DNA of 64,000 bases from the NCBI GenBank assembly GCA_002189035.1, contig NEEC01000010.1, positions 1,364,001-1,428,000 of the forward strand, written 5' to 3'. The DNA comes from Utricularia gibba. Taxonomy: Eukaryota; Streptophyta; Magnoliopsida; Lamiales; Lentibulariaceae. Shown in pieces: positions 1,134 through 58,755 of the stretch. Every line of letters begins with the position of its first letter. Within the stretch, counting starts at the first letter, position 1. The notes under the pieces are model-generated. The model was given only the letters and a program-made list of their open reading frames with translations. It was not told the DNA's origin and made no database searches. The position numbers and the translations under genes were made by a program.

Positions 1134-4100
1134 ATGGCTTCCTTGGTTTCATCACCATTTACTCTTTCAAACCCAAAAGTTGAGCATCTTTCATCGCTTT
1201 CTCAGAAGCATTACTTTCTGCACTCGTTTCTTCCCAAGAAATTCGGTGGAAACATCAAGCAAGCATCCCAAAGCTTCAAATGTGCTGCAATTGGAAATGG
1301 TTTGTTCACTCAAACCTCGCCGGAAGTTCGGAGAATATTACCGGAGAAATCAAGGGGACTCCCCACTGTGAAGGTTGTGTATGTTGTACTGGAAGCACAG
1401 TATCAGTCCTCACTCACAGCTGCAGTTCAGTCCCTCAACAGCAAAGGGGAGTTTGCGTCGTTTGAAGTTGTGGGCTATTTAGTTGAGGAGCTTAGAGATG
1501 AAAATACCTATAAAGCTTTCTGTAAAGATCTTGAAGATGCCAATATCTTTATTGGGTCATTGATTTTTGTGGAGGAATTAGCCTTGAAAATAAAGGCAGC
1601 TGTGGAGAAAGAAAGGGAGAGGCTTAACGCAGTTCTTGTTTTCCCATCAATGCCTGAGGTGATGAGGCTTAACAAATTGGGTTCTTTTAGTATGGCTCAG
1701 CTCGGACAGTCAAAGAGCCCATTTTTCCAGATGTTCAAGAAGAAGAACAAGTCATCTGCTGGTTTTGCTGACAGCATGCTAAAGCTTGTAAGAACTCTCC
1801 CTAAGGTTTTGAAGTATTTGCCAAGTGATAAGGCTCAAGATGCCAGATTGTATATCCTCAGCTTGCAGTTTTGGCTCGGAGGCTCGCCGGATAATCTTAC
1901 CAACTTCCTGAAGATGATTTCGGGGAATTATGTTCCTGCATTGAAATCAACGAAAGTTGAGTATTCCGATCCAGTTTTGTACTTGGATACAGGAATTTGG
2001 CACCCTTTGGCTCCTTGTATGTATGATGATGTTAAAGAATACCTCAACTGGTATGCCATCAGAAAGGATACAAATCAGCAGCTCAAGAGTCCGAATGCTC
2101 CTGTGATTGGACTTGTTCTACAGCGTAGCCATATAGTTACTGGAGATGAAAGCCATTATGTGGCTGTGATTATGGAGCTGGAAGCCAGAGGAGCAAAAGT
2201 TATTCCAATTTTCGCTGGTGGGCTTGATTTTTCAGGGCCTGTTGAGAAGTTCTTTATTGATCCAGTGACCAAGAAACCGATGATAAACTCCGTGGTGTCG
2301 CTCACCGGCTTCGCTCTCGTTGGTGGACCTGCAAGACAAGATCACCCCAGGGCTATTGAGGCCTTGATGAAGCTTGATGTGCCTTATATTGTAGCATTAC
2401 CTTTGGTGTTCCAAACCACAGAGGAGTGGCTTAATAGCACATTGGGGCTCCACCCTATTCAGGTCGCTCTGCAAGTAGCTCTCCCTGAGCTCGATGGTGG
2501 CATGGAACCAATAGTTTTCTCTGGCCGGGATCCAAGAACAGGCAAGTCTGAACTACGTTTCAGTTTCTCACTTCCCATTTTGCTACTTGTTGAGAAAACT
2601 TCCAGCATTCATCGACTCATTCTTCCATCAAAATATTACAGGTAAGTCACATGCTCTTCACAAAAGGGTGGAACAACTCTGCACCAGAGCTATCAAGTGG
2701 GCCGAGCTCAAAAGAAAAACAAAGGTACATTTGTGTTGGTGACTTTGCTGGAAAAATCATGGAACTAGCAAAAGAGAATTGGAAAAGTGTTTGTTTTGAA
2801 GTTTTTGGATGATTTGATCAGTAGCATACTTAAAGGTAAAGCTGATATGTTAACAAGTCTTGAACTTGAACAATTTCAGGAGGAGAAGAGGCTAGCTATC
2901 ACTGTATTCAGTTTCCCTCCGGACAAAGGCAATGTAGGAACTGCTGCATACCTCAATGTGTTTGCCTCCATCCACTCCGTTTTGAAAGATCTCAAGAATG
3001 ATGGGTACAACGTAGAGGGCCTTCCAGAAAACGCAGAGGCATTAATTGAAGACGTTATTCATGATAAAGAAGCTCAATTTAACAGTCCAAATCTCAACGT
3101 TGCATACAAAATGGGAGTGAAGGAGTACCAGAAACTGACTCCTTACGCCACTGCTCTTGAGGAGAACTGGGGTAAGCCCCCTGGTAACTTGAATTCTGAT
3201 GGAGAACATCTTCTGGTTTATGGGAAGCAATACGGGAATGTGTTCATCGGCGTTCAACCAACCTTTGGCTACGAGGGAGATCCAATGAGGCTTCTATTCT
3301 CCAAATCAGCAAGTCCACATCATGGATTTGCTGCTTACTATTCATACGTTGAGAAAATCTTCAAAGCTGATGCTGTACTGCACTTTGGCACACACGGTTC
3401 TCTTGAGTTCATGCCTGGGAAACAGGTGGGCATGAGTGATGCTTGTTATCCTGATAGTCTGATCGGAAACATCCCAATGTCTACTACTATGCAGCTAACA
3501 ATCCATCAGAGGCCACCGTTGCTAAACGTCGTAGTTATGCAAATACTATCAGCTACTTGACTCCTCCTGCTGAAAATGCTGGTCTGTACAAGGGGCTTAA
3601 GCAGTTGAGCGAACTGATCTCTTCATACCAGTCTCTGAAAGACACCGGGCGAGGAGCCCAAATTGTGAGCTCTATCATAAGCACAGCCCGGCAATGCAAT
3701 CTTGACAAGGATGTTGATCTTCCTGAGGAAGGAGTGGAAATCTCAGCCAGAGAGAGAGACCTTGTTGTGGGAAAGGTGTATTCCAAGCTTATGGAGATAG
3801 AATCACGATTACTCCCCTGTGGACTTCATGTCATTGGAGAGCCTCCATCTGCCATGGAGGCAGTGGCCACCCTTGTCAACATAGCTGCCTTGGATCGCCC
3901 TGAAGAGGGCATTTTATCTCTTCCGAGTATATTGGCGGAGACAGTGGGCAGAGAGATTGAAGATGTCTACAGGGGAAGCGATAAGGGAATTCTTCGTGAT
4001 GTTGAGCTACTCAGGCAGATAACCGAGGCATCACGAGGGTCGATCACTTCATTTGTGGAACAAACCAGCAACAAGAAAGGCCAAGTTGTCGATGTTGCCG

Positions 4101-5701
4101 ACAAGTTGTCAAAAATGATCGGATTTGGAATCAACGAGCCATGGATTCAGTACCTCTCCGACACAAAATTCTATCGCGCTGACAGGGGGAAACTGAGGAC
4201 TTTGTTCCAGTTCTTGGGAGAATGCCTGAAGCTAGTTGTGGCTGATAATGAATTAGGAAGCCTGAAGCAGGCACTTGGAGGGAAGTACGTCGAGCCAGGC
4301 CCTGGAGGCGATCCTATTCGAAATCCAAAAGTCTTGCCAACAGGTAAGAACATTCATGCACTTGACCCACAGGCGATTCCTACTGCAGCAGCCTTGCAAA
4401 GTGCAAAGATTGTCGTTGAGAGGCTGCTCGAGAGGCAGAAGTCCGAAAACGGAGGCAAATACCCAGAGACTGTGGCTCTTGTGCTGTGGGGAACTGATAA
4501 CATCAAGACATATGGAGAGTCACTTGCTCAGGTCATGTGGATGCTAGGAGTTACACCAGTTGCAGACACTTTAGGACGTGTGAACCGTGTCGAGGCCGTG
4601 AGCCTCGAAGAGCTTGGAAGGCCCAGAATTGATGTAGTTGTGAACTGCTCTGGTGTGTTCAGAGACCTCTTCATCAACCAGGCAATGCTTCTTCCCCAAA
4701 CTTCCATCGAAGACAAACATTCATAAATAGTCCATGCTCTGAAGTTCATGTTTTCTGATTTTCAGATGAATCTTCTTGACCGGGCTGTGAAGATGGTAGC
4801 TGAGCTGGATGAGCCAGAGGATCAGAACTTCGTGAGGAAGCATGCCTTGGAGCAAGCAAAAGAATTAGGCGTCGAAGTTCGTGAAGCTGCAACAAGAATC
4901 TTTTCAAACGCCTCCGGCTCTTACTCCTCAAACATCAACCTTGCTGTGGAAAATTCTTCATGGAACGATGAAAAGCAGCTACAAGACATGTACCTCAGTC
5001 GTAAGTCATTTGCATTCGACTGCGATGCTCCAGGTGCAGGCATGACGGAGAGGAGGAAGATTTTCGAAATGGCTCTCAGCACCGCTGATGCCACCTTCCA
5101 AAATCTTGATTCCTCAGAGATATCCCTCACGGATGTCAGCCATTACTTCGACTCGGATCCGACCAACCTTGTACAGAACCTGCGTAAGGATGGCAAGAAG
5201 CCTAATGCTTACATTGCTGACACCACCACAGCCAATGCACAGGTTAGCTCCCACATTCCAAATCTGATCATGAGAACTATTGCTTCTAGATACAGTTTAG
5301 TGAGGCCGGTTTCGTGGATCCAGGTTCGGACACTCTCCGAGACCGTCCGTCTTGATGCAAGAACAAAGCTTCTTAATCCCAAATGGTACGAGGGGATGCT
5401 GTCAAGTGGGTATGAAGGGGTGCGTGAGATCGAGAAGCGCCTTACAAACACGGTTGGATGGAGTGCAACTTCAGGGCAAGTAGACAGCTGGGTGTACGAG
5501 GAAGCCAACACAACTTTCATTGAAGATGAGCAGATGCTGAAGAGGCTGATGGATACGAATCCCAATTCATTCAGGAAGCTGGTGCAGACTTTCTTGGAGG
5601 CCAACGGAAGAGGATACTGGGAGACATCCGCTGAGAACATAGAGAGGTTAAGGCAGCTTTACTCGGAGGTTGAAGACAAGATTGAAGGAATTGACCGCTG
5701 A
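1134..5701 (+). CDS. CHLH: Magnesium chelatase subunit H, chloroplastic (with one apparent 1-nt frameshift)
   Basis: Large porphyrin-binding subunit of Mg-chelatase, which with CHLI and CHLD inserts Mg2+ into protoporphyrin IX in the plastid (GUN5 in Arabidopsis). Exons: 1134-2541, 2642-2724, 2880-4681, 4766-5242, 5324-5701, giving about 1382 residues after correction, the usual family length. The first 50 or so residues are Ser-rich and transit-peptide-like. Family blocks include [54 protein letters not shown] and the C-terminal [15 protein letters not shown]. Exon 3 lacks one base at about 3476: two A's stand where the expected Asn codon after GNIP needs three, and the expected reading resumes in the next frame. 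Introns 1 (2542-2641) and 3 (4682-4765) begin with GC instead of GT. Intron 4 (5243-5323) is 81 nt, in frame and stop-free. Identity is certain; whether the frameshift is real is not. Confidence 0.96.
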
Positions 5702-5758
5702 TTCTTACCCCTGTAAAGCAAACTACTGATTCTGTGCTGAGCTGAGCTATGCTGCTGT

Positions 5759-5764
5759 AATAAA
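5759..5764 (+). terminator. Polyadenylation signal of CHLH
   Basis: AATAAA lies 58 bases after the CHLH stop codon, a normal position for a plant near-upstream polyadenylation element. Confidence 0.55.
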
Positions 5765-7263: not shown

Positions 7264-7270
7264 TATATAA
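7264..7270 (+). promoter_or_regulatory. TATA box of the glutamate-receptor-like gene
   Basis: TATATAA in the context CTCTATATAAACC, a close match to the plant consensus. It lies 144 bases before the preferred start at 7408. A start site about 30 bases downstream (near 7295) would begin close to the alternative in-frame ATG at 7297. Confidence 0.6.
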
Positions 7271-7407
7271 ACCTGTGGCAGGTCAACTTGCTGCAGATGA
7301 TAAATGCCTTGAGCTTTAACACGCTCATTCATGAAGCTGAAGTCAAATCCTTCGCAACTCTGTCCTTTCCAAGATTCTTAATACTCCAGGATTGCTGGCT
7401 GTCCATC

Positions 7408-12199: not shown

Positions 12200-12246
12200 A
12201 CACCACTCTGCTGTCAAAGAAAAGGTAACATGTATGCTTTACCTTC

Positions 12247-14001: not shown

Positions 14002-17000
14002 TCATGGTCTTCCCATACATTCCATTGGCAAACCAATGTCTTTGTTCTTTCGGAGAGCAAAGTTTCTTCTCCATGGATCATTGTGCAACTTGTAATGCAG
14101 AATCTGCAACAAAAAAATGAGCAAGATGTGATATTGATGTTTGGGTAAATCAGTTGGAAGTAATGCCATCATGGATCAATGAGATTGATTTTGCTGCATG
14201 TGATTTAGGAATCTGGGATGAAACAATGAAAAGGATTCTTCAACATTAAACAGGGGTAACATATACCTGCATGAGAGTGGCAAAGACATCATCTTCCTTC
14301 AGTTCCGAGAACCTCACAGCCCAATTTTCAACCAGGCCAACAGTATCTTTCTGCCGCTTGGCTTCTAGCATGATGGAATCCCGATACACAAACCTCTGCC
14401 ATATTTTCTTCACATTTGACAATTTCATTTCTACCTCAGTCTCATTTATGCTCTAGAGAAACCAAAAAAAAAAAAAAAAAAAAAAACAAAACAAAACAAA
14501 ACACTATCAGTCGAGTTACTCAAAATTTCAGTGCAAGTAACGCATATACCCTCAGAACATGTATCATATTTGGAATGTCATCCTCCAATACTCGAACAGC
14601 AAAGCTTTCATAGTTGAAAAAATTCTCGTAAGGAAGGTAAATTCCATCCTGTAAAACGAACAAAAATTACCAAGCGATAAGTGATATGATGTATATTACT
14701 AAGGTACAGAGTTCAGATGGTCAAAGGTCATCACATTACAGGCAATCACCATAAGTGAGAACCCAATGCAGCCCTCGCTTCTATTTGATTGTATTTCACT
14801 CAGGAAATTATTTTTCTCGAGGTCATGAAGGAGGAAATAAGTAAGCAACCTGGATGATAACGGGAATGCAGCCTTGCAATATGCTATCTTCCATTCGACC
14901 ACTCCACCCATCTCCAGGCATGACGCCACAGAAAGTAGAATTTGCTAACTCATCTTGGTAATGATCTGTGCGTAGTGGTGTGACAATAACATCATGAACA
15001 TGCTGTTTCCCGAGCTTTCCTTCCTTGTTAGGTACTGATCCAAACTCCTTAGCCACTTTCTGCCTTATCCCCATGCTATATCTGCATACATCAACATCAA
15101 TCCGTTAATTCAACTATAATGTCAGATATTATCTACTGACAGCTCTTCCCCTAATCTTTTTCCGATTTACATGCTCAAAAAGGCAAAACTGCTTATGAAG
15201 CACTCACAGATGAGAGAATAGACAGGGAATTAAGTTCAACGAAAGCATTTCAGTTTGAATTCCCCATTTGCACCTACACAGTAATTTAATGCTAATGGAA
15301 AAATAAATATCACCCACAGAATAAGACTGGTTGCTGTGAAACGTAGTCTGGAGATGGAAAGGAAACTAGAGAAAACAAAGGACAGGTAGAACTTTCCAAG
15401 TTTGCAGAGGCTACCGAAAAAACCATTGTATATGCAATTTTCAGAGAAGACTAAGGAAAAGGCTGAAGAACAATGAGCCACACTTACGTATCTTCAGGTC
15501 TTCCATGTTCATAAGCTGGTCCAAGATTTCCATTGAAATAGAACAATGTGTTCCTTTTCTCACGAGGTCTGCACAAGCAATTTTTTTTTTCAAATATATA
15601 GGAACAAAATTTGAAGCAGTTTTAGTTGTTTATCAATTATACCTAGACCAGAGTTTGGCTGTAAGAGAATATTCATCTGGGCTTTTCCACGCGGGAAGTA
15701 CAATATCTTTCATTGGATCGAAGCATGGGTGGGTGCCCCTTCGATCCTTGGAAATAGAATCCCAGTTGTCAGCCCAATATGCTGTTGTTGAATTCTTATG
15801 CTTTATATTTGTATTGCCCCAGTGGACTAACATGATGCTGCTCCATATTTCCTTGGGGGCATAGCAAGCACCTTCGTCCCATGAAAAGAACTGCCTTCCA
15901 AAGACACATCAACAGCATATTTAGCCTCTGAATAAAAGCTAGAAGACAACGTAGAGTATTGTTTTTCAGTTCGCGTTAGTGTGATACCCATATGTGATCT
16001 TTTCCAGAGGATTGGTTCCAGTAAGAGTATTTAAGCATAATATGCTCATATGCCTTCTTATAGAAATCAAGAGTGAAAGAACTCCGCTTGCCACCATGAT
16101 CCTGCCAAGGAAGCAGCACATACGAGTAGCATGAATGAACTACAATTTTCCCAACAAGGAATTTTTATTTTGAGAGGAAGTGTGGGAAGAGGAGGTGTGT
16201 AAAATGTTACAGCAGAATTTACCTTCATGCTCAAATGAGGAGCATCATCTGCACGAGTAATAATACAAGAATCAAGCACCGGAACAAAGAAATAGTCTGC
16301 TTCATCACCATTCAGTGTCCTGTGTGGGCTGGCCAATAAACTCTCATAAATAGCCATCTGAAAACATTTGAACGGTTTAGTTCATCACTAAAACATTGAA
16401 GATACACCAGCATTTTGTAATATTACAATCCATCACCTGTGAACCATACAGTTGCCCAAACCACACCGTAGCATTTCTGTCATCATAGTATCTGTTTACA
16501 CACTCTAACTTGAAATGACGTCCCTTCATATAAGAGCAGAGGTGTAAAAATTTCCAACTCACAACAAGGCTACACGTGGATTCATATTATAATCAGTTAC
16601 CTCCAGCAGAAGACTGTTGAACTCGGGAGGCAAATCATAAATATATATAAGAGGTCGTTTCTTCTGAACTACGGAATTAAGATTAGTGATCTTTTCCGTG
16701 ACATTTTCACTGTTAGGAAGATTAAGCTTTGCTGGTAGCAACCATTCGGGCCACTCTCCAACAGATGATTTAACTGAAGGCACACTACAGTCTACACCAT
16801 ACCATCCATTTCTGCACTGAATACATCATTGGAAATTCAATCTCAAGATGAAAAAAACATATTTCATCACAATAAGGTAGCTGAGAAAGTATGAATACTT
16901 CTCAAAGACCACAGAGGAGTCACTGGAACAGAGGAGCTAAGGAAAAAGAATCTGAAAACCCAGTTAGCTTAATTTAAAAGAAACTTCAACATCTTGCAAC

Positions 17001-18510
17001 CAGCAGTTTTCGCTTGAAGCACATTTAGTGAAGCGGCAATCATAACCAGAATAAAGGAAAACTTGCAGGAGAAAGTTATTACTTTGTACCTGACAAAATC
17101 CACCTCGGCAGTGCCCACGCCCAGAGCACTGATTTATGCACACACTTTGTACAGGAATTTCGCAGTACCGGCCCCAAAGACCATCATACTTGCAGTCACA
17201 TTCTTCTTTTACTTTAGCCCTAGAAGCATACGCCTCAGCAGGTTCTACATTACACCATCCTGGTATGCTGACGTTTGTAGTAAAAATATTCGTTTCTACA
17301 AGTGACCAATCAGTCCAACGTGGACCACCAGGCTCACGAGGTGGACTGAAATATGGTGGAAACCAATGAATCAAAAATTTCAAAATGTTGAGTGGATTAT
17401 GAATACGAAATCAACACCAAAAAATTCATAGGCTTACTTAATTTTAAAACCACAGGTCTCTGGTGCTGGGCGCTCGGGGTATTTTGTACCTTCTCCACAA
17501 AAGCACATGGCTCGAGATTTATCACAATAAGCAGGGCAAATGGATACAACCCAGCGTCCAAATGGCTCTTTTTCCGATTTTGGATGATTGCAGTCCAACT
17601 GCAGTCTTTCTAAGCATCCCTCTCCTGAATCCAAATAACTCAGAGAAGAGGTATCATCCAGTGGAGCAAAAAAGAAAATCATTTATAAAAACAGCATTAA
17701 CTAAGACGACTACTACTCCCTGGTGATGAAACAGCACCAACACCATGAAATACATGATACAGGAGAATTTTTCATATTCCATATTGACAACAAATGTATA
17801 AACATTAATGTACAGTACGTTAATTCATAAAAGACTCACCAGCATAGCCATGAAAACATCGGCACAGACCCAATTCATGATTGCAAACACCTTTGCCGTT
17901 GCATTCCTTTTCACAGCTCCTGCCCCCAATTTTCTGCATTCAATGGACATTGAGTTGAGAATAGCACTCAATAAAAAATGAACACCAACGAAAATAAGTC
18001 CTTTCAAAAGCAATAGTGTCGATGAAGCACAAGATGAAAAACGAAGATCTGAAACATCTATCCTGAATGCCACATCTAGGAGCAACTTGAGTAACCATGG
18101 TGTATTTCTACATCGCATCATCACAGGAGGTACCTCTGAAATTGCAACTGAGGTTACGTTTGAGTCACAACCAGATAACCATTGGCCAATTTCAGCCTTC
18201 CAAGGGCATTGCGATAAAATACAGCATTCCTTCTATCAGCTGGGAATTGAGCACTAAATTTAATGATGCGTCGAGAGGGCTCCATGTCTCCTCCTTTTCC
18301 ATCATCAGACAACAATCCTGGAGCATCCATTTGTCCATTTTCACTAGAATTAACGACGGTACAAGAATTCTGTGCTTGCAGAAGGCTTGAATAGTCGAAA
18401 GATGGGGCCAGACGGAAAAGAAATAGGTGAACCACGACAACAACCGCCAAGATTAAAGCAGCCACGGAGCATGAGCACTTGAATTTCCGTAAGGGAAATA
18501 TGAGCCCCAT
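14002..18510 (-). CDS. ExAD: Extensin arabinosyltransferase ExAD-like, GT47 exostosin family (with one apparent 1-nt frameshift)
   Basis: Type II Golgi glycosyltransferase. Arabidopsis ExAD adds the fourth arabinose to extensin hydroxyproline side chains. Exons: 18134-18510, 17840-17933, 17438-17624, 17090-17345, 16601-16816, 16437-16523, 16223-16357, 15988-16101, 15643-15890, 15488-15568, 14850-15081, 14550-14648, 14267-14452, 14002-14103; about 804 residues. Order: membrane anchor at about 15-31 ([16 protein letters not shown]); EGF-like repeat near 127-160 ([17 protein letters not shown]); a Cys-rich linker; second EGF-like repeat near 290-320 ([14 protein letters not shown]); then the exostosin domain from [17 protein letters not shown] through [27 protein letters not shown] and [17 protein letters not shown]. 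In exon 1, CCC at 18204-18206 should be CCCC to join RNA to [13 protein letters not shown]. All introns are GT-AG. A 23-base A run lies in the intron at 14464-14486. Confidence 0.93.
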
Positions 18511-20278
18511 GCTAAAGCTTCTAAAAGACTAGGTCAAGATGACCAAGAAAAACTTGTAGGTAGCAACCCCTCCAAAAGATAGGCCTGAAAATACCAGCGA
18601 AATCAACACTACAAGAGTTCATGTACAAAATGCAATACAATAGACACGGAAAACTTGTCTCATTATGCCATATGCGTAGAAAAAGATGGAGGAAGAACAT
18701 CGATCAGCACAAGAAACACCATTTTAATCAACATGTAGTTTAAAACACCATTTTACCGGCATTTCAAAATATTAAAAACAACCGTAGTATTCATCTCAGC
18801 ATCAAGACCAAACATTGGGTACTGTTAACACTACGATAGCTACAAAAACATCGTTAATTCGCAACATTATCACCATCAACGATTCGAAAGTGAAAATGGC
18901 GTACCCCTGTTTCTCAGCAACCGCCGGCAACTAGCCATGACGGGGTAAAAGACCGAACAAACAAAAATAAAAGAAACAACGAGACATCGATTACTTCCAG
19001 CTGATGATTCATCCATACAATAATGCGCAGATCATATGCAATTTCGCAACGAACATACAAAAGAAAAGAAAACTTCGCAGCTCTGGTTGAAGACGATTTG
19101 GAGTCGTGGATCGAAATAAGAAGACTTGCACAACCGTTGGGAGCGCCGTCTACATGGCTAGGCAACCCAGCTGCAGCTCATATAACAATTATTCACAATT
19201 TAAATATTCATTAGATTCTAAATATGCCTTTAAATATGAATTAGACGTTAGGGTACGACTTTAGTGTCGCGTATAATTCCCGTTGTTGAGTTATTTCATT
19301 AAATATCTTTTAAATTTACGTCACCAAATGTGGGTGGGTATGTTTAACCTAAGATGTATTTGATTAATACGATTATATAGGTTTAAAACTAAAATTATAA
19401 ATTATAAGATGTTTCATTGATAAATTTTAAATAAATTCGAAATTACAAGAGTTTTTTTATTCCCATATACATAGATTTATATAAATCACATCTTCTTTCT
19501 TACTTTACTTAAAACCAATTAATTTCATTTCTAATTTAAATAGTTAAATACTAACTAAAAAATTAATTTCATTATATTAACTCTATTTAAATCTAATTAA
19601 ATTAAACTAATTTTATCTCGTTATTGATTTATTCTACCCGGTAATTCAAATTTGATGTAATAATACATGCATTCTCATGCCTCCACCCAGAATAAGAAAA
19701 AATGATTATTCGGCCGTAAATAAACATAATAATCAGATATGTTTATATAAAAAAAAATATTAGTAATTTTATTATTAAAAATAAACCTAAATTCTCTCTC
19801 AGGTGCAATCTCCATTCTTTTGGGAAGTATGACACGATATTAAACTAAATGAAGGAGATATTTTTGGTTGTAAGCCAAGTGCTGATTACCAATTTCCAGA
19901 TCGTTTGAATCCGTCCCGTAAAAATGGATCGTTTTTCTCTACCGGTTCGGCGTTTCATATTCCAAACCCTAGGGTTTGCGCGAATGAGCACCGACTGAAT
20001 CATTCTCGCATCTCCTCGACGAATGAAGCGGCAGCGTTGGTCGGAATTTCACCCATTGATGTTTGCGCGAATTGGTGTTTCGACGGCAATCTTTCTGAAT
20101 TATTCAACTTTGGAGTGAAAGCCACAAGGTGCTCGTGCTGCTGTCTGTGAGTGGAAACAATTACATGGAAGGCCATTTGCAGAGGTCTATGTGAACGTCG
20201 TGGTAGGTATATCTCCGCCGAGCTTGCTTCGCTTTACAATTGAATCGATGATATGGAAGCTTTTGAAGGGATCCGCCG
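18511..20278. other. Spacer between ExAD and the gar2-related gene
   Basis: Holds the ExAD leader and promoter (about 18511-19200), an AT-rich stretch (19200-19880) and a more GC-balanced stretch (19890-20278) that contains a palindromic telobox (listed separately). Short plus-strand ORFs in the last part are not recognisable proteins. Confidence 0.5.
19964..19977. promoter_or_regulatory. Palindromic double telobox
   Basis: AAACCCTAGGGTTT is a perfect 14-base palindrome made of two overlapping AAACCCTA teloboxes in opposite orientation. Teloboxes are usual near the start sites of plant ribosomal and cell-cycle genes. No such gene is seen within 1 kb; the nearest gene is the 3' end of the gar2-related gene on the opposite strand. 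Confidence 0.6.
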
Positions 20279-25310: not shown

Positions 25311-25320
25311 GGTCTTCAAG

Positions 25321-25602: not shown

Positions 25603-28555
25603 AGTGGTGTTGTACATGGATCGGGCATAAACCGGAAATGTATAGATATCGATGTGAATTTGAGGATATCCAATATGGTGGATTATCCAATTTTTCAAAA
25701 AATATGAATTGGATTGGTTTAAGGATTCTATGATCAAAAATCTGATTCGATCTGTATATATATATAAATTATAAATTCATTATTTTTTTTTTTTACACAA
25801 AACTAAATCCAAATGTCAAAGCCCGAATTCCAAAACCCTACATATTCTTCTCACACATTTCAATATCATGAACGGTTGTGCAGACTTCAATCATAGTATT
25901 TTCTTTATGTAGTCTTGACTCTTGATCAATATTCAACTAAAGCTCATGTCAATGACATGAGAAAATGAAGAGCAAGCAACTGAACAGCCACCATCTTCTT
26001 CAATGTCATCTTAAGCCCCTACTCAAAGTCAAAGTGATGGAATTGAAAATAAGCATTGTCTGGATGAAGTGAGTAAAGAAAAACCACAAGATATACAAAA
26101 ATCTTGGATTTGGGAGCATTTTAATATTATCGAAGGATTGACTCAAAATGAAAAAAGAGTAGCTTATGTATACTGTTACACAGTAATTCTTTGTCCTCTA
26201 GAATAGGTACTTCTTGTCTAATCAATCATTACAATAGGTGCAAAAGAAAAAAAATCATGGAAACACATTTGAAAAAAAGCAGAAAACTATTGAATTCAAA
26301 ATTACAGAAGGTAAGAGTTCTAAAGAGATGACCACACATTCCTTTGATCAAAACATTTGTAGGAAATCAATTGCTAGAATGATTATTGTGGATGAATTGC
26401 CCTTTAGAATAGTAATAAAATATGGGTTTATAGAGTTCTGTTATCAAATGAGACCATAATTTGCAATTCCTGCTCGTACTTTTATTGCTAAGGATTGCTA
26501 TAAATGCTTTTTGGAATTGAGAGAAAACTTGAAGGTATGTTTTCAGAAGTTATCTTCACATATTTACCTTACTACAGATACATGGACTTCTATTCAAAAT
26601 TTATGTTATATGTCTTTAACATTACATTATTAATTTTTGTCCAATCAATGGTCACACAGGTGAAAAAATAGCCATGTCTATAGAGAAATACTTGTTAGGA
26701 TGGAAAATTAGTAAGGTTTTTACAGTTACTATGGATAATGCTCGTGCTAATGATAGTGGTTTGATATATTTGCAAAAGAGGTTGAATAGTTAGAAGGGCA
26801 TTATTATAAATGGTGAGTATACGCACATGAGATGTGCTGTGCATATTTTGAACTTGATCGTGAAGGTTGGCTTGAAAAACTTTGAATGAATCTATTTGTA
26901 GAATTAGAAGTGCAATAAAATATGTCAGGTCATCACCTTCCCAAGCCTTAAAATTTAAGTCATGTATAGAGAAAAAGAGAATTCAATGTAAGAGTAGTGT
27001 TTGCTTAGATTTTAAAACTAGATGGAACTTGACATATTTGATATTAGAATCAACAGTAAAATTTGAGAAGGCTTTTGAATTGTTGGAAACAATTAATAAA
27101 AGCTAAATAGAAGAGCTGAATCCAAAGAATTCCAATGATGATAAATATCAAGACAAACATATTGATATTGGAAAAAAAATATATAAAATAAAAGATGTAC
27201 CTATATAGGTTGATTGGAAAAATACAAATAAATTATTATTATTTTTGAAAGTTTTTTATAAAACTACTCTAAAGCTTTCAAGATCATTTTATGTCATTGG
27301 AAATGATTATATGAAAGAAGTCTATGGGATTGGATTTTTTCTTTCCAAAATGTGTGGTAATCATGACAAGGATATTACTTCTATGACATCAAGAATGAAA
27401 AAAAACATGACAAATATTGGGGGGACATTGATCGTATCAATATCCTTATTTTTGTTGTTACTATTCTTGATCTAAGATACAAATTGATCTATGCAAACTT
27501 GATTATTGATAACACATATGATAAAGAGGCTACTACGATTTTGAAAGAAAAGGTGAATTATGTTTTTCACGCCATGTTTGATATTTATTCTATTCCTTTC
27601 TTTAATGCTTAACAAACAAAAAGTCAAGTTGAAGAAAGATTCATTATGGATATTGATAATATCTTTAGAGAAGGTATTTTATTTATTTATATAAACATAT
27701 TATTGTTTATTCTTTCTCTCAATGTGGTGATATTTGAAGTTTTGATATAGGTGATTACATGAATACAATGTTTAACGATCAGCTTGGAGAGTTTGACAGT
27801 ACTAGAAATAAATCTAAATTTGACATATATTTATTAGAGGTGATGGCTAATCAAAATGCTAAAGATTTCAACATATTAGAATGGTGAAAATCAAATGCCT
27901 CAAGATATCTCATACTTGCTACCATAGATATGTGATGGCTATACCGGTCTCTACGGTAGCTTTAGAATTTTCCTTTAGCATAGGAGGTCGTGTTCTTGAT
28001 CCTTTTCGAAGCTCTTTAGGTCCAAAGATGGTAGAAGTTCTTGACGTGCACAAGATTGGATGAAAAAAGATCACAAGATTATCAACAATGAAGAAATTTA
28101 GAAGAGATGGAAAGCTAGAAAAAAAAAACAAGTTAAATTTTTATACTTTTATGCAATGATTTTTTTTTTAATTTTTTCATTTGAAACTCATTTTGTTTTC
28201 TAAATTAAATTTGCATAAATTGGTAGTGAAGAACATCATGTTATCAACATTGATGTTATTATGTTTTTTGATGATATTTTGATTTTGTAATCATTTACTT
28301 TAAATGAGTGTTTTGTCATTGAAAATTAACATATTATAACATTTTACATTGTTTATCATAAGAAAAATGGTTAATATTCAGTAATAATTTTTCTTATAAT
28401 TTTTTAGATGCAAATCGGTTTGATACATGAATTCCAAACCGATCCAATCCGATATATGCAGTTTGAATTACTGATTGCAATTCTAATGATCCGTAATATG
28501 CAGATCGATTTGGAATTTAGGGCAATGGATCGGATATCCGATCCGTGCACAGCCA
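25603..28555 (+). mobile_element. Decayed hAT-family DNA transposon (BED-finger, RICESLEEPER-like)
   Basis: A 2.95-kb element between an 8-bp target duplication. The ends form imperfect inverted repeats: TGGTGTTGTACATGGATCGG at the left, TGGCTGTGCACGGATCGG read inward from the right. The right subterminal region is rich in CGGAT/ATCCG motifs, as in many plant hAT elements. Inside is a plus-strand transposase relic (listed separately) broken by several stops. The end base pairs differ from each other, so terminal decay or an error of a base or two in the boundaries is possible. The element is non-autonomous now. Confidence 0.85.
26100..28065 (+). pseudogene. hAT transposase pseudogene
   Basis: Family motifs appear in order but in changing frames. 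A BED-finger-like start (SWIWEHFNIIEGLTQNEKR) lies near 26104-26160. TTDTWTS is near 26575. TVTMDNARAND, the second acidic catalytic block, is near 26720-26755. MRCAVHILNLIVK is near 26830-26868. A stretch RIRSAIKYVRSSPSQALKFK starts near 26900. The hAT C-terminal dimerisation block, AIPVSTVALEFSFSIGGRV, is near 27937-27995. Several in-frame stop codons and frame changes separate them, for example after WLKNFE near 26885. No intact ORF longer than 80 codons remains, so it cannot encode a working transposase. Confidence 0.85.
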
Positions 28556-30361: not shown

Positions 30362-33241
30362 TCAGCAGCTACCTGAAGGCAGGTGCTGTCCCCTTCCCAT
30401 TGCAAATCCTCTGGTTCCATCGGGCATTCTCGGCCCAGGTGGTGGTTTTGAAGGCTCAGGAGCAACACCTAGAGGAACAGTAAAACTGAGTAAGGGTCCA
30501 GGTGGAATTGTAGATGAGTAAGAACACAATCACCATGACTGTTTGCGTGATGATAGTTCAGTCTCCTCCCACGCCCTCGAGCTTTTTGCTCATTTTTGTC
30601 TTTCGGGTGCTGCATTATGTTTTTCTGCTTCGTCTCATTCTCGTCCTGAAATCATCAGAAGCATAAAGTGCATCACGTGGCAAATTCTGCAAACGTGGAT
30701 GGACACCGGCATTGCTAGTAACTTTTTCGGAATGAATAAATACCTCAACGCCATGTGGATCACCGTGCTGGATCGATGTATCGCAGTTCTCATCCTCCCC
30801 AGCTATGTCAGATTTCTGAGCTCTATTGCTAACTTTCCCCGGATCCAACTTCTTTGAAGTTTTTTTCTTATGATCGTTGGCTGGAATAGCACTCTGGAAA
30901 AACGCACATCAGTGCTCTGCCAGAGATGAAAGAATGCATAGAAAATGAGATAAGTATGAATACCGGTTTCTTAAGAAGCTTAACCCTTAACCCATATCGC
31001 CAATCTTGTTCATTGTTTAGCGTGGCAGCCTGTATCAAATTACAAATTATCATCAAAGGGATAAGAGAGATACTCAAAGTACAGTGTGGGATGGTATGCC
31101 AAAAGCAGGACATTTAAAGCTTACAGCTTTCTTTGCAGCCTCCACGTTTTCATATTCCACAAGGGCATGCAACTTCAAAGATGAAGAAAAGAAGAGTAAA
31201 GAAAATGGCTTTGATTCTGAAAGACAATGCAACCATAGGACACACACACACACACACACAAAAAAAAAAAGAAAAGAAAAAAACTACACATCCTCCCCAA
31301 GGGATCAACTCTATTCACCCTTAAAGCCGACAAGACGCTCAACTCTCAATGCTTCCTTACCCACAGTGATTACCATTCGATGAGTATTAAGTTATTATAC
31401 ATTAGCAATATTCTGCTACTTCAGTACAATTCATGAGGCATACACAAAGTGCAAAGTTCATGTTAAACACTTGGCGCAATCATGCTTAAAACCTGAACAT
31501 TTTCTCTCTTGATGATATGTATCAACGTTCATCTAAAAGCTCACATATGCTTGATATTCTTGAAAATCAAAGCTTAAAATCATGTTCCCCAGGTACCAGA
31601 ATATCATAACCTTATGATAACATTCTATCTTCCAGCTTGCGCATGTTATACAACAGAAATGCGTAACTTTCTTTCCTGTCATTCTTTTCAAGATAAATAA
31701 AAAGTCACTGAGACTAGATGAAAAATATAACCTTTGCGAAATCCCCACAATGTGAAGCTACCCTGCTACTCAGGGTTCCCCATTTCCACAACTAACAAAA
31801 ATTAGGAAAGTTGGATAAGTTGGGGTATACCTTCCCACTTAGAAGCTTCTCAGCAACTGTGAGCATTTGTGACTCTTTACCATCATGCGGGGTTCGCACG
31901 GTAATTTGTTTAATTCTGAAGCGTGCAAGTAAAATTTAGAAGGCAGTAAACTTGAATAACAACATAAAAAGCCACCTACTTTCCAGCTTCACTGAAAATT
32001 CTTTCAAGGTTCTCCAATGAATGATTTTCTGGTAGATTCTCCACCAATACAGTGCAGGCCTAAAAAGTGATGCAGGATTTTCAATTTTACTAGCACTACT
32101 TTCTTCATTGAAATACTGATGTTATGAAAATATACAGATTCAAACCTGAGCATCTTTAGCATCTGTTAATGACAGCGGATGAAGCCGTTTAACACCTTCC
32201 CCATCAGAGCTAACAACCTGCAGAAATTATCTTGGCGGCTTTAAGCATAAGCAAAGTAGAGTAAATAAGCAATGGCATCAATAGGTTTGCACTCTAAGAA
32301 ACTGACCACTTTGGGGGTCAAAGAAAAGAACACTGGGAAACTTAAAAAATACTAGCAATGGGACCATTTGAGCCACTTACAAGAAACATTGATTCCCTCA
32401 ATGCAGCAACGATTACAGACGGGTCTTTTGTGAGTTTCTTCATTTTTCTAAAAGATGCAATGATTCCAATGGGAACTGAAAATAGAGCAATAAATATAAA
32501 TTAACAAGGGTGAAAGATCTACCCAACTAAATACATCATCAGAGTCTCATATGCATCCAAATAAGGCTTGGTAAAAGTCAGATGGAAAGGAAAGGGCAGT
32601 ATAGTTTCGGAATGGGAATCACTCACCAAATCCATCACTGTTGGCCATTATATGCTTCAGTAGAAAACTGTCCTTCGGCAAATTTTCATCACTGAAGTAA
32701 TACTCCACCTGAAAAAACAACAGGAAAAAATGATTTACAAAATTATCAACTCAAAATAGAAAAAACACATTACATGAGAACCCCGCCGAAACGCTCCAAA
32801 CAATGAGTCATGAAGATCAAGATCAACCAAGAATAACTTAAACGCACAGTGACGACCAGAACGCTCCTACAACAGTTCTGTACCAGCCGATGTTGAGATA
32901 TTTTTTTCAAACGGTTATGCATGTAACATGTTTGCATACAACCCACGATGAAGGATTCAAGAAAAAAAAAACATGAACAGATAGAAAACAAGAATGAAGA
33001 GTTCGAAGCTGACACGCCAGTTAATTTTAAAATGCAAAAAAACACACATGCGCTTCAAGAAACCACAACGCGCGTTAATTTTCGGAGCCCTAGTCCCTAA
33101 ACTCGCAAGAAATCGAAAAGGCAAAAAAGAAAAAGAAAATAAAAAAACCTGTTTGATAATTTTTTGACGGAGATCCTCCAACGCTGTAGCCGGCGGCGAA
33201 GGAGCGCAAGGAATCCGGTCTCCAGATTCTTCGGATTCCAT
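30362..33241 (-). CDS. LARP6A: La-related protein 6, LARP6A-like (with one apparent 1-nt frameshift)
   Basis: RNA-binding protein with a La module. Exons 33149-33241, 32627-32708, 32381-32475, 32146-32217, 31980-32059, 31831-31915, 31125-31172, 30964-31029, 30744-30893, 30362-30645; about 351 residues after correction. The La motif is at about residues 18-100 (IIKQVEYYFSDENLPKD, PIGIIASFRKMKKLT, VIVAALRESMFL). An RRM-like domain follows (CTVLVENLPENHSLENLERI through LHALVEYENVEAAKKA and WRYGLRVKLLKK). The tail is basic (KARGRGRR) and ends with PPPGPRMPDGTRGF, the LARP6 C-terminal block. Only about 17 residues precede the La motif, so there is no room for the N-terminal PABP-binding PAM2 motif of LARP6B/C. 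In the last exon one base is missing near 30515-30523, between HGDCVL and SSTIPPGP. A CA repeat lies in the intron at 31241-31260. Confidence 0.88.
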
Positions 33242-43221: not shown

Positions 43222-44656
43222 TTACAGAGGGGAATCTCTGACGAGGCTCATCGCTTCAACCATCGTTTCTCTGAATCGCTGGACATCCACTCTAACGTTC
43301 TGGCCATTGAGATACACTTCTCTGCCCACACTGCTGGAGAAAGCTTCAGTTGGATTACTGAAGACAGTGGAATTCCTGGCGGCGAACACTTTCCAGAGTG
43401 AGCTTTCCTCAGGCCTGATCTCGTACTTGAGATAATGGACACGCATTGCTCTGGCAGGGTCCCCGTAGTACGCCGCGGCGGCCCAGTTCAGGCCGATGAG
43501 ATCAAGCTGCACCATCACCGCGCCGTCCGGCAAGAAAACCTCGTTCGTCAGGCCGGCGCCGTGTGCCCCCACGAACACGCTGCAGGAATTGACGATCCTG
43601 GAGAAAACTTTGAGATTCGATATTGTTTTTGATCTATGGATGACGATTACTTCGAAACCCAGTTCTCGCATCATGGTGACGAGTTGTTCTTCGTTCAAGA
43701 TCCGTCTTGTTGATCTTCTGGAGAGGAGCAGTAGTCTCGGCTGGCTGATTTGGGAGACGTGGTTGAATCTCAGGTTAAGTGATCGCCGGAGGAAATTTCG
43801 GAAGTCAACTATCGAGAGCCCAGTTGGAACATCGCCGGGATCTATGGAGAGGTGGTTGTGGAATTTCAAGCCGATTACGCCTCCGGGGAAGCAATGAACC
43901 GTTCTGTTTGATTCCCGATTTATGATCTCCGACGAGGTCAGGGCCGCCAGTACGGCGGAATATTTCTTCATGAAGGCCTGATTGTAATCCTCCACGATGA
44001 ACACGACATCGGAATTCAACCGCCGCGTGGTGATGAACAGAGGGATTATGATCTCGTTTATTTCGTGGAAAACGTTGCCGACGAATCCGCTGGTGGAGAA
44101 AACCACAGCCGGGAATTTGTGGTTATGCTGGCAAAGCGGCTGAGAGAAATTCCCGGCGGATATCTTCACCGGCGTAATCCTCTGCATAAGCACTTGATCT
44201 TCCTGCCGCGCGTAAGGCCTAATAACCGTTTCTTCAATTGACGACGGCAACGGAGACTGCACAGTCACCGTCATCGTGGTTGTGTCTATCAGCAACGGTG
44301 CGTCCGCTACACAGTGCTTGGAATAAACTCCGGTGTTACAGGCGAAACCGGTCGCCATCATTCTTTCCGATCATCTCCTGTTGATTTCACATCCCTGCTT
44401 AATAGAAATCCAAAACAGAGCCACTTGACAATCAATTACCTCTGAGTAGAATATCAAGAGAACCACCGCTCCGTCTCTCCTCCTTCTTCCCCTGGCCGGA
44501 AATTCGCCGGAAAAAAAAGTGCTTCGAAGCTTCGATGGCCCGCGAACGAGGAACTCCGTTACCCCACGAAACCTGAAGAAGCAACCAGGGGAAAAGGATA
44601 CAGAGGAACCAAAAACACAAACTCAGAACGAATCCCTTCCTCTGCTCTGTCTCCAT
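43222..44656 (-). CDS. GT61 family glycosyltransferase, copy A (with one apparent 1-nt frameshift)
   Basis: Golgi type II glycosyltransferase of CAZy family GT61 (DUF563), whose plant members add xylose or arabinose to xylan or glycoproteins. Exons 44440-44656 and 43222-44377, separated by a 62-nt intron; about 457 residues after correction. Membrane anchor at residues 9-29 (LSLCFWFLCILFPWLLL). Family blocks: GFACNTGVYSKHC, FVGNVFHEINEIIIPLFIT, CFPGGVIGLKFHNHLS, QPRLLLLSRRSTRRILNEEQ, FVGAHGAGLTNEVFLPDGAV and the C-terminal RPEESSLWKVF. Exon 2 opens with GDDRKE and then goes out of frame; one base more near 44362-44368 restores the reading into MATGFAC, matching GEDRR...GFAC of copy B. Substrate not predictable from sequence alone. 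Confidence 0.9.
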
Positions 44657-47600
44657 ATACAACGCACCCTTCTCTTTCCCCACAAACCCGAACCCCACCC
44701 TCGATCAGAAATCCGCCATAGCCATGGAGCTTCCCCACTCCGATGCTCGTATTGCAACGAAGTCTCTTTAGTTTGTGTAGGGGAAGACTTTTTTTGTTAC
44801 TTGTTTGCTTGCAACGCCGGGTCAAGAATCCTTTTGCTGTGAGTCACAGAAGAAGACATTTATCCTTTATGTTAAACGCCTAAAACAATCAGCTCCATCT
44901 TCAACTACGATTCCGGAAATCATTCTCCAAATCGATTTCATTATTTATTCAATTTTTTACTCATAATTTAAAAATCAATTCGGTATTCTTTTTTGCTGAA
45001 ATAATTGAAAATTCATGCACGTAACCCATATTTTAGATTGATTTTTTTTTCTACAAGATTAAAAATGATTATCTTAATTTTAAAATACAGTTCATCAGTA
45101 GGTGTCCAAGTGTCATGAGTTTTTAATTTGGTTTAACGAATCAATCTATTCTTAGATGATATTATATGTTTCTATTCAATTTTCATAATTTTACGTTCTT
45201 TTCTCTTAGAATGAATATATTATACAAGATTTAGATAATCATTCTACTTAATTTCTTTTTCTTACTCATTTCTAATCTATGGAAGATTCATCTGAGGTGG
45301 TTATGCCACCGGCCTTACAATATAGGGAGGCTAATTTTTAATCAAGTGATTTTTAATTGGCCGTTTGGCTAATCGAGTGTTTACCACGGCTACGGATTAA
45401 TTAATTTTCTCAGCTGTAGATAATGCCTTCCCATTTGTAACCGTCATTAAGGACCACCCAAATCACACCCATAAAAAAAAGGAGCAATTTGTATCGATTT
45501 GACCATTTTTATTTATTTATTGCTAGTTTATTCGCTGTAAAAAGCACAAGCTGTTTCTATAATTTGGAGGAGATTTCGCGTTTCAAAAATAAATTCAAAA
45601 ACTGTAATTTATCTCCAAATACATTAGGGGTGTGACTACTAAGAAAGCATAGGTTGATGGAAGTATAATAAAATAGGTTTAATTTATTTGAATTTAAATA
45701 AAGATATCATAAAAATATTCAATTTTCATATAGTATTTGATTATTAGTATTAGAATTCTATTTTATGTATAAGGTAAATGTATTAGGTATGTAAATAATA
45801 TGGTCTATATTTTCAATGTATTTCTTTTAGATATCTATATAGGAGATGATCATTTTGCAAATAAATTTTACCATAGAGGAATGATCATCTTTTAAATTTA
45901 CATTTTTTTAATTAGTAGCTTGAGTGGTCATCAGAATCTTGGAAAAAAAATTAAAAAAAAAACTAAATCCAAAAATGTATTGAAAGATGATTTTGGATAC
46001 CTTCCCAAATAGTATACTAAATCATATTTTTACCGACGTTATTAAATTTAGAAAATCATTAAAAAAAACAAGAAAATCAATCATAACCAGCCTGTGATTT
46101 TGACCTGCAAAACCAGCCACCAAATCATTTTACTCAATAAAGAGAATGGAAATGTATTCTATATTATAGTCTAATTCCGTGAATTTTTTATTCGAATAGA
46201 ATAAATTTGAGAGAATCTATACAGAATCCGTTTAAAGACATTTGTCCCAATGGACCGATCCTATCTCGGAGGTAGACTATTTAATATCATCCAGGCTATT
46301 TTGATTTAGGCCATTTAGAAAATTGTATATAGAGATTTCTCTCTCACACACCAAATTTTTATATATAAGATAACTATTTTTATCATATTATATAATGATC
46401 ATTTTTATCACACATTTAAAATAAAATATCCATTTTGTAATACATCTCTTTTCTATTTGACTTTCGGGTACGCCTACCAGTCCCGAATTCAAAATCACGT
46501 AACACGCGCATCCCTCCCTTTTCTAACACACAAAACACACAGATTTGACCGTAAAAAGATTGCAGAGATGGATTTTTTCTTAATTAGAAAAGACAAAACT
46601 ATCCCGACCTCATATTATTTCTTCAGTTTTCAATAAAATTGTATATGTGGTTTTGATTTATCTTACATAGATTTTAAATTAAATTATTAGTTTAATTTAA
46701 AAATGAGTAATTTCATGATCAATCACCATGCAATGAACGGCTTTAATCATACTTATGTTTCATTCGATATTAGAACATAGATATAATAATTTAAAAATAT
46801 CATGCATATATTAAATAAATCATATTTTAAACCCAATATCTGAATTTCTTCCAGGATTTCCTTTTCATTTTAAAAAAAAAAGGGGATGGTGTCACGCAGT
46901 GGCAGTCTGTCGTGTATTGGACAAGGGCTATATAGGGTTTTCACAACTCTAATACAAATCAATTTAATTCGTTTCGGCGAGTGAAAGGTACTCTCGATAC
47001 GACGCCGTGCTGTTTATTCAGGGAAAGTGACGTAAACCATCAGTTACGTGGACGTGCCATGCCGCTGATCACGTTCTGCCCAAGTGACCTCATTTCTTGA
47101 TTTGTTTAATTCACGCTTAAATTAATAAACAATATTAAATTGAATATCTATTTGGGTTAATTATAGTGACTGATGTGACGTCGATCATCACGTCTAACCA
47201 TTTCGAACCCTTGATTCCTCTGATACTCATTGCCCATAATTAATAAAATACTTAATTAAGGTTCAATTAAGCTGCTTTTAAAAGCCGAGCGAGCTGTTAA
47301 CCAGTTGGGTTGCCGATTTTGACCTCTGCGGTTTTAACGGAAAAAAGCCTCAGCCGAACCATTTGACGGATCAGGAAGCTTAGTCTTTCTGATTTCCAAT
47401 TCAATTAGTGGTTCATATTAAATCAAATACTCCTATATTAGGAAATTAAATGAAAATAATCAATTATATAATAAATTATAAATCATTAATAATAAATTAA
47501 ATCTAATATTTTAAATTTTGATTAATATTTATGATGTATTTGAGTTTCACATATAATTGTTCAATTCGTTGAATAGATGTATTACAAATTTGAACATTCT

Positions 47601-48089: not shown

Positions 48090-49613
48090 TTATTCCCCTG
48101 TGTCGTCTGTTACAAAACTGAGTGCTTCCACCAAGATGTCTCTGAAGCGTGTAAGATTCACCCTGACGTTCTGAAGATCAAGGAATACCGCCCGTGCCGC
48201 TCGGTAGCCGCCTTTCCGATAAACGGAGTCGGGGTCGGTGACGACGGAGCTGTTTCGGCCGTACAGTTTCACAAGTGAACTCTCCTCTGGCTGGATTTTG
48301 TACCTTAAATAGTGGACCTTCATGGCTCGGGCTGTGTCGCCGTAGTACGTGTCGGAACCCCACCCCGTGCCGAGAAGCTCCACCTGAATCATGACGGCGC
48401 CGTCCGGAAGGAAAATCTCGTTCGTCAGGCCGGCGCCGTGAGGCCCCATTAGAACTTTACAGGAATTGATCATCTGCGCGAATCTTGTCAAATTGGACAT
48501 CATCCTTGATCCTTTGATTACTACCACTTCGAATCCCACTTCTTGAATTAAGGAAATCAGAGCTTCCTCGTTGAGGAATCTTCGTGTGTTTGTTCTGGAG
48601 AGGAGTAGCAGTCTGGGCTTTCGAATCTGGGAAACGTGGGTGAACTTCAGATCATAAGCTCGCCGGAGGAGTTGCCGGAATCTCGACATGGAAGCCCCCT
48701 TTGGAACCGCGCTGGAATTCAACGCTAAATTGTTGTGGTACTTTAATCCCACGACCGCCGCCGGGAAGCAGTGGATGCTCTGGTTTTCCGATGGATTAAT
48801 CAATTTGTAGGCTGAAAGTTGGGAGAAAATCCTGCTGTACTTTCCCACGAAGGATGGCCTGTAGTCTTCGAGAATGAATTGGACTTGAGATTTGAACTGG
48901 TGGGTGGTGATGAAGAGGGGGATTATGATTTCGTTCATCTCGTGGAACACATTTCCGGTGCTGCCGGAGGAGAATACCACGGCGGGAACGCTGTGGTTAA
49001 AATCACACGACTCCGGCGGTGCCTCTGTTGTGTTTCTGATGTGAACCATAGTCACCGGCGATATGTCCTTTAGAGGTTCTTCCTGCTTGGCGTATGGCCG
49101 GACCACCATATCGGCACCCGAAGACTCCCCTGCATTGATGTAAACCGTGATGTTCTTCTTCTTCGTGTTAATCATCACCGGAATCTTCGATACACAGACG
49201 ATAGAATCAAGAGCTATGTCACAAGCAAATCCCTCCCGATCAAAATTTCTCCGATCTTCACCTGTTTCCCCAAAAACATCAATTCATCTAATCAACACAA
49301 AACCCACAACCAGAAAGCCGAGGATCACAAACCTTCAAAAAATCTCCCCAACCGGTCTCCCTCCAAGTCTCCCCCGCCGCCGCCCCTGTTCCCGGCGAAG
49401 AAAAGTACTGGTCCCCTGCCATTTTCACGACTCAGAGGCAAAGAAAGGAACAAATTCCATCAACCCACAAAGCAAAAACCAAGATGTACGTCGGAAAAAA
49501 GGCGCCCTCTTTCCCAACCAAAAGTCAGCGCCGCCGTAAACAAGCAGCAAAGCGACCAACATAACCATCGGAGTTGAGCTGAAGACAAGAAGACTCTTCC
49601 CCTTCTCTTCCAT
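48090..49613 (-). CDS. GT61 family glycosyltransferase, copy B (N-terminal frame uncertain)
   Basis: Tandem paralogue of copy A. Exon 2 (48090-49261) is continuous: GEDRRNFDREGFACDI, then STGNVFHEMNEIIIPLFITT, CFPAAVVGLKYHNNLAL, KPRLLLLSRTNTRRFLNEEA, LMGPHGAGLTNEIFLPDGAV and a C-terminal QPEESSLVKLYGRN. Exon 1 probably runs 49333-49613: it starts MEEKGKSLLVFSS and has a hydrophobic anchor (MVMLVALLLVY). Its length is 281 nt, while the phase of exon 2 needs a remainder of one, so the frame breaks between about 49333 and 49440. Either one extra base or two missing bases would fix it; a T6 run near the donor and the segment around 49435 are candidate sites. Same predicted role as copy A; substrate unknown. 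Confidence 0.85.
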
Positions 49614-55900: not shown

Positions 55901-56078
55901 TTGCCTTTCTCTTCTTTTTATCCTTCTCGTGCCGTTTGATTTTAGTGTTGCCCTGTGCTTGACTTCGTTCCATTTTCTGCGATGCGTTCCTTCATTGAAA
56001 CCGCAATTCTCCGAGTTGTTTTCCATGTTTTCAGGGCGATGTGATTTTGCCGCGATTTTCAAACACCCAGTTTGGTTT
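52987..56078. other. GDSL-LPAT divergent spacer
   Basis: About 3.1 kb between divergent genes. 53150-54440 is very AT-rich. A G10 run lies at 54455-54464. 54480-54830 is less AT-rich and has a 103-codon plus-strand ORF with no family features. 55780-56078 is the likely LPAT promoter and leader. No gene recognised. Confidence 0.5.
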
Positions 56079-58755
56079 ATGGGCAATTCAGGTGTTCTTT
56101 CCTTGTTAAAAACCCCTAGATTCGGAATCTACTTCTCCCCTGGTTCCTGGTTAAAGACGGCGGCCCCCCGCCGTCCGACCAGCAGCCACTGCTTACTGGG
56201 GAGGCCATTGAGGGCGTGTTTTACGAGGATTACGTTTCCGAGGATGATGGGTTGTTGCCGGATTTGATTTCCTGGGTTAGAATCGTTGTGTGCTTTGTGT
56301 TGATGATGGTGATGACACTGATGTGGTGTATGGTGATGCTGATTCTGCTGCCATGGCCTTATCTCAGAGTGAGGCAGGGAAACGTTTATGGGCATGTCAC
56401 AGGGAGGATGCTGGTGAGTCTCTTGCTTCCTCATATTCTCAGAAAGCATATGCTGCAAAACATAGGATTAAAAACTTTTTCCTTAGAAATGAAAAGCCAA
56501 GTAGAAGAGCTGAAATGCCAATAAAAGGTGGTGAATAAAGATGTGGATTAGAAGCAAATCAATCAACAAATGAAAACACCAAGTCTAAATGTGAATTATC
56601 ATGTTGCAAATCTTAATATACCAAACTGTTTAGGTAAATTTGATGCATTATTATAAAATAATATTACTTTATATCCGTTATAAATTCATTCCTTATTTCA
56701 TATGAATGCTTGGTCAATGAGATAATCTTAAAAATCAATTTTCTATTTGGTATAACTAATGTTTGTATATTCAATTCTAGTTACTGTAACTTACATGTTG
56801 ACAAACAAACTATATTAAAATGTATCTTCAGTACCATATCCCACTGATTCATTCATATTGGATTCTTTCCAAGAATCATTTTACTTTTTGAGAAGGTACT
56901 TGGAATAAAACAAAAGTTATATATCTAAAATTTATTAAAATTTATTGTTTTTAGATTTATATTTTTTAATAAATAAAAATCATTTGTTAAATTATTTCTA
57001 TTATGTTTTTTTGTAGAAGAGGTATTCAAAACATACCCTTAATCTAGTATTTTCTCACATATTCTTAAAAAATTATGATTATAAAGAAAAAGATTACAAA
57101 AACATAGTAATAGACATGGGGAGAATTGTACAAACAACCACTGTACACAAAATAGGTGACCCAACTAAATATTGCAAGTGTATGAATTTTTGGAAGTATT
57201 TCTTTTTTTTTTGTGTCTGTTTGGAGCAAGATGGCGTGTAATAATGCTGTCCAGCTTTTCTATATTGGCGTGTGCGCGTCTGCCTGGATCTTGTGGTGGT
57301 TCTGCTTTGTGCGTGGCCGTCACTGTCAGTAATATGTATTAAAATTAAAAATTGATTTTACATTTTTGTCATATATGATATATAATTTGTGATACTAAAT
57401 ATAATTATTTAACAAACATGTATTCATAATTATTATTATTATAAATTAATTTTTTATGTCCTATGAAACAAAATTTAAGCAGTGTTCTGGAAATTAAAAA
57501 TTGTTTTTATTTTTCAAAATTAATAATTTTGAAAAATATAAATAAAAATTAAAAATAATCAACTTCTTATTTTTTTAAAAATAATTTTTATAGTTATAAT
57601 TTTAAAATTTTTTTGATAAAATTATTTGTACAATTAAAAGTATTTTAGAATAAAATTATTTTTACTTCTGAATAATAAAAATAAGTTTTAAAAATTTTTC
57701 AAAACATTACTTTAATGATTTCCACCAAAAAAATCTTTTGATATCTTGATAAAAAAAATGTCATAATTGTTGGCAGTGCCCCACGTTTATTTTCTGATGC
57801 AATATGGAAGATGTAAAAGTTGCAGGTTTCATTTCTTTTTTGTTTGCTTTCCTGATTTGAATCTACGAAGAAGAAAAAGAAGAAGAGAACAGTAACCTGA
57901 CGTCCGATGATCATGCTGACTGCAGATGTGGGTCTTAGGGAACTCGGTGAAGATACAGGGTGCGGAATACTCGCAAGAGAAGGCGATCTATGTGTGTAAC
58001 CATGCGTCTCTGCTGGATGTTTTCCTCATCATGTGGCTAACTCCGACGGGAACCGTCGGCATTGCCAAGAAAGAGGTGGCTGACTCTTTTCCCGAAGTGG
58101 CTGCAAATACCCCTCTGTATGTGTTTGTTGATGCCATGGCTCCATGATCTGCAGATCATTTTCTACCCCCTGTTCGGTCAGTTGTATGTCCTAGCGAACC
58201 ACCTACGAATCGATCGGTCGAATCCCAGTGCAGCCATCGATTCCCTGAGAGAGGTACCGCTTCTCCATCGTACAAGTAGCAGCAGCCGCAGCAGCATTGG
58301 ATCCTAAACATCTCTGTGTTTCAGGCTGCTGAGGCGGTGGTCAGGAACCATCTTTCGTTGGTCATCTTCCCTGAAGGGACGAGATCAAAAGACGGGCGCC
58401 TCCTGCCGTTCAAGAAGGCAAGTCAAGAGCTCTCCTCACCCCCTTCTTCTCCGGCACCATCATGAATATGAAAATCCGATGCCTTCTGGAACAGGGTTTT
58501 GTGCACTTGGCTCTGCAGACACGCCGCCCCATCGTCCCGATCGTCTTCACGGGCACGCACCGAGCATGTCGGAAGGGCGGGTTGCGGATCAGGCCGGCCT
58601 CCATAACTGTCAGCTTCCTTCCTCCAATCCAGACAACGGATTGGGAAGACAGCAAGGTGGATGAATATGTTGCACTGGTTCATGACCTCTACATGGAGGT
58701 CCTCCCGCCGTGTCAACAGCCCATCCCAGGATTCAAAACCGGGGACTCGTGCTGA
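56079..58755 (+). CDS. Class-B 1-acyl-sn-glycerol-3-phosphate acyltransferase (LPAT), with one apparent 1-nt frameshift
   Basis: Membrane enzyme that acylates lysophosphatidic acid at sn-2 to phosphatidic acid, in the ER glycerolipid pathway. Exons 56079-56413, 57926-58075, 58155-58253, 58325-58417, 58495-58755; about 312 residues, against 308 for the coconut class-B enzyme. Order: short N-terminus; membrane segment with MVMLILLPWPYLRVRQGNVY; motif I NHASLLD (NHx4D catalytic pair); PLFGQLYVLANHLRIDRSN; motif FPEGTRSKDGRLLPFKKG; VPIVFTGTH. Exon 1 has six C's at 56164-56169 where seven are needed to join LKTAAPP to PSDQQPLLTG. The match to coconut and meadowfoam class-B LPATs is clear. Intron 1 is 1512 nt. 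Intron 4 (58418-58494) starts with GCAAGT, a GC-AG intron. Confidence 0.93.

Follow-up and report, generated by a model that had tools for sequence, protein, structure and literature searches.

The errors most similar to those considered here have been described in genomes assembled from PacBio reads with HGAP. A genome of E. faecium (ATCC 700221) still carried 561 single-base homopolymer deletions after HGAP and Quiver (PMC4888979), and HGAP assemblies of P. falciparum contained 25,352 indels against 1,798 substitutions prior to Illumina correction (PMC5964635). Our observations in Utricularia gibba resemble the former in that single bases are deleted from runs at a rate of the same order per kb, and the latter in that indels greatly outnumber substitutions and give rise to apparent frameshifts in genes. 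However, the E. faecium deletions came to light directly when Illumina reads were mapped, whereas those discussed here were deduced from reading frames and from doubly assembled loci; and P. falciparum is AT-rich, with very long runs dominating, whereas here it is short runs of C or G, 3 to 7 in length, that are chiefly affected in coding sequence. A tool named Kastor, according to its abstract, addresses gene-fragmenting errors, which are spotted by comparison with conserved proteins (PMC12007338). The error class is recognized via conserved proteins there as it is here, although the tool was designed for small genomes, whereas ours is a 100-Mb plant assembly. Both the signature of the losses and the order of magnitude of their rate agree with published HGAP/Quiver assemblies before Illumina polishing.

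The long-read assembly of U. gibba has been reviewed as an HGAP assembly from 88-fold PacBio coverage, with an N50 of 3.4 Mb and 581 contigs (PMC5793159). The assembly that we searched comprises 100.09 Mb in 516 contigs, a number that differs from the published one, and appears to be an HGAP/Quiver assembly of this species. The original prediction spoke of “unpolished” reads, a term that does not suit this likely source, as HGAP includes Quiver (PMC5793159); “not short-read polished” would be a better fit. Four contigs (C1, C2, C505, and C507) have lengths of 8,500,000, 6,192,500, 3,452,500, and 642,500, which are exact multiples of 500 and may reflect consensus calling in windows.

Our starting point was a stretch of 64,000 nucleotides, hereafter the window, in which five neighboring genes had been proposed to be each exactly one base short. 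This proposal is sustained for CHLH, ExAD, GT61 copy A, and LPAT, and not for LARP6, where a 65-nt intron would suffice; we grade one of the five breaks as certain, one as likely, two as probable, and one as unproven. The certain case is that of CHLH, which encodes Mg-chelatase subunit H (1134..5701, + strand) and whose PF02514 pieces run on across the break. The reading frame is open on both sides of a single frame change at 3471-3475, and the frame asks for one more base at the CCC at 3473..3475. A frameshift- and intron-aware alignment to Synechocystis ChlH, in which 416 of 597 residues are identical, contains one 2-nt codon at the break, and no second break was found over the approximately 600 residues aligned. 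Since the break lies inside a 22-residue motif that aligns without gaps to cyanobacterial ChlH, an intron is ruled out as its cause, and the frame break is certainly genuine in the sequence as given. CHLH had been described as usually single-copy, and indeed the window copy is its sole match in the assembly.

The break in the ExAD-type GT47 gene (14649..18528, − strand) is graded as likely. This gene has 12 exons, with a match to Exostosin_GT47 (PF03016) in the joined exons, and its exon 1 appears to be one base short at a CCC (18204..18206, −). In the spliced alignment, one 2-nt codon is placed at 18206-18207 (−), and the other junctions are 11 ordinary GT-AG introns. The reference for this alignment was a protein assembled from the window, so that it attests to internal consistency only, and the family match of exon 1, which we take to be that of plant ExAD proteins, is not independent. 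In LARP6 (30365..33241, −; La and RRM domains, PF05383 and PF00076), a missing base is unproven. Here, a candidate 65-nt GT-AG intron (30469..30533, −) restores the frame with no added base, and the spliced alignment of the gene runs without a shift. We considered this intron as a sure explanation and dropped it as such, given that roughly 20% of 100-nt segments of exon contain a pseudo-intron that equals its weak splice-site score, and that no Pfam match to the C-terminus of LARP6 was found. No other close copy of either ExAD or LARP6 was found in the assembly.

The two breaks graded as probable both fall in poorly conserved N-termini, where other gene models are possible. GT61 copy A (43222..44704, −; PF04577) is 51% identical to its tandem duplicate, copy B (48090..49580, −; PF04577), which served as the comparison sequence. 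A three-frame comparison of the two suggests that exon 2 of copy A starts one nucleotide short at the AA of AAAGAATGATGG (44361..44362, −) when it is read in the phase of copy B, and the downstream domain is open after this point. A DNA alignment of the copies also gives a net one-base deficit at 44361-44362, but with gaps that are spread. The first exon of copy B (49325-49580, −) itself seems frame-changed, and this copy may carry an error too. The second probable break is that of LPAT, a class B type acyltransferase gene (56080..58755, +; PF01553), in whose variable N-terminus a C6 run (56164..56169, +) would be one base short: the sole open reading frame with an upstream ATG reaches the conserved frame only if C6 lacks one base. 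A further LPAT break at 58418 was considered and rejected, as 58418..58494 (+) is a GC-AG intron (AAG/GCAAGT) with no break, and an intron of the GT-AG type occupies the equivalent position in a paralog on contig C328. This diverged paralog (L057) is the only second copy of LPAT in the assembly; it shows a frame change of its own, at a G6 run in the same N-terminal exon. Two of the genes that had been described as unbroken are so in our analysis: DREB2F is one open frame, and the joined exons of GDSL match their domain without interruption.

The frequency of breaks in the window can be compared with that of the assembly at large. As controls, we used four gene families with few or no introns, namely GRAS, KCS, BAHD, and HSP70, across the whole assembly and many contigs, amounting to 139 kb of coding sequence. 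A shift was scored wherever adjoining matches to a single gene lay in different frames, and its class was taken from the net displacement between them; loci assembled twice were excluded from the counts. Shifts of the −1 class numbered 27, against 3 of the +1/−2 class, at least one of which consists of two separate one-base losses (L031). This corresponds to one shift per 4.6 kb of coding sequence and predicts approximately 4.3 shifts in the window, with its coding sequence estimated at 20 kb, where 4 were found. The window is thus typical of the assembly in its frameshift rate. It is also situated mid-contig, at 1.36-1.43 Mb of a 3.55-Mb contig, and these two findings lead us to reject a local patch of low coverage, or the proximity of a contig end, as the reason for the breaks. 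The original prediction of long-read homopolymer error identified the cause correctly but not its reach, as the rate in the four control families shows it to be genome-wide and not local.

The positions of the losses follow a clear pattern. By aligning broken GRAS genes to intact paralogs, we located 19 events, all but one of which are one-base losses. C/G runs of at least 4 account for 44% of the located losses, compared with 7% of random coding positions, and runs of at least 6 for 17%, compared with 0.5%. In intact GRAS genes, 2 C/G runs of 6 were observed where 4.6 were expected, and 0 runs of 7 where 1.4 were expected, in a depletion test that is too weak to use. Two GRAS loci look like real pseudogenes: one has stops as well as shifts (L047, C244:2104500-2107000), and the other is partial and has a stop (L050, C321:1545000-1547500).

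A more direct view of the losses comes from loci that were assembled twice. Over 4.1 kb, contigs C316 and C412 (L017/L018) are separated by 1 substitution and 10 indel events; each indel is a loss in the small contig, and the large contig, C412, shows none. Between C422 and C416, a comparison of 1.6 kb reveals 6 substitutions, five of which sit side by side, and 2 one-base losses. Through one of these losses, a GRAS gene is broken in C416 but not in C422, and its 295 aligned residues are identical in every other respect. Relative to C422, the end of C414 has many losses and a single gain. The same locus, assembled independently, thus comes out with different run lengths and few substitutions. 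These pairs cover 1.6-4.1 kb each and involve less well covered parts of the assembly, namely small contigs or the ends of contigs, so their loss rate is likely above that of mid-contig sequence; the error itself, however, is seen directly in them. No second assembled copy of any of the window break sites was found in the assembly. More generally, small contigs duplicate parts of large ones and differ from them almost only by single-base losses (L017/L018 and L026/L049/L038, as well as C241 and C304:2.235 Mb). These duplicating contigs were probably left unpurged in the assembly.

The assembly itself therefore exhibits a genome-wide bias toward one-base losses, an enrichment of these losses at C/G runs, and disagreement between copies of one locus. 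Together, these features argue for consensus error at the window sites as well. In this explanation, consensus calling on PacBio reads alone would have shortened short homopolymers, chiefly of C or G, by one base, about once in every 4-5 kb of coding sequence throughout the assembly; the window would contain the expected number of such drops, and its genes would be intact in the plant. We consider it highly probable that the breaks are PacBio-only consensus errors in intact genes, with the same cause presumably acting at all four window sites. A different possibility, that several neighboring genes have recently become true pseudogenes through one-base deletions, would take the breaks at face value, as they are present in the sequence as given, and signs of decay, including several stops, are indeed seen in some GRAS loci elsewhere (L047, L050). 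However, CHLH is required for chlorophyll and has only the one match in the assembly, and the four breaks come without an accompanying stop or larger indel: none was found in CHLH and ExAD as aligned, nor in the frames downstream of the breaks in GT61 copy A and LPAT. Moreover, HSP70, DELLA-like, and other conserved genes lose single bases at an equal rate genome-wide. We therefore find such pseudogenization very improbable, and the preference of the original prediction for homopolymer shortening is borne out by the 27 to 3 imbalance of shifts, the C/G runs, and the disagreeing duplicate copies. That one of these four genes, CHLH for instance, should be truly disrupted in the plant, with a single-copy chlorophyll gene being read by frameshifting or replaced, is in our view scarcely credible.

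The chances are about even, by contrast, that some of the breaks reflect a misread gene structure, with missed introns or other starts and no base lost. LARP6 is readable with its 65-nt intron, 58418-58494 of LPAT is an intron of the GC-AG type, and an ATG lies just past the break in GT61 copy A, all of which would be consistent with this reading. On the other hand, it is impossible for CHLH, with its break within a gapless conserved motif, the splice sites of the LARP6 intron are weak, and a start past the break would leave GT61 copy A with no N-terminal exon. One could also suppose that programmed ribosomal frameshifting or RNA editing mends the frames, considering that the well-supported shifts are all in the same direction. 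The affected sequences and genes are unrelated, however, and events present in one assembled copy are absent from its duplicate; to our knowledge, no such system operates at this scale for plant nuclear genes, and we assign this idea a negligible probability. Consensus error in PacBio-only sequence remains our preferred account, and what was observed is then real, but an artefact of a commonplace kind.

The rate of false frameshifts, one in every 4-5 kb of coding sequence, is a measure of the quality of this reference genome, and it implies that a large share of the longer genes would enter an annotation as truncated, split, or missing. Before a gene is called lost or a pseudogene from the assembly alone, short reads or transcripts thus need to be consulted. 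UgDCL3 has been published as truncated (PMC8333044). A six-frame search of the assembly identified four Dicer-like loci with an RNase III pair, one of which (C213:2761967-2762970) has no Dicer_dimer match in that search, in agreement with the published report. As the six-frame search tolerates frameshifts and found no Dicer_dimer there, the truncation of DCL3 does not, on present evidence, appear to be due to one-base errors. Finally, the window also harbors a remnant of a hAT transposase at 26600-28063 (+), whose C-terminal dimerization region matches PF05699.
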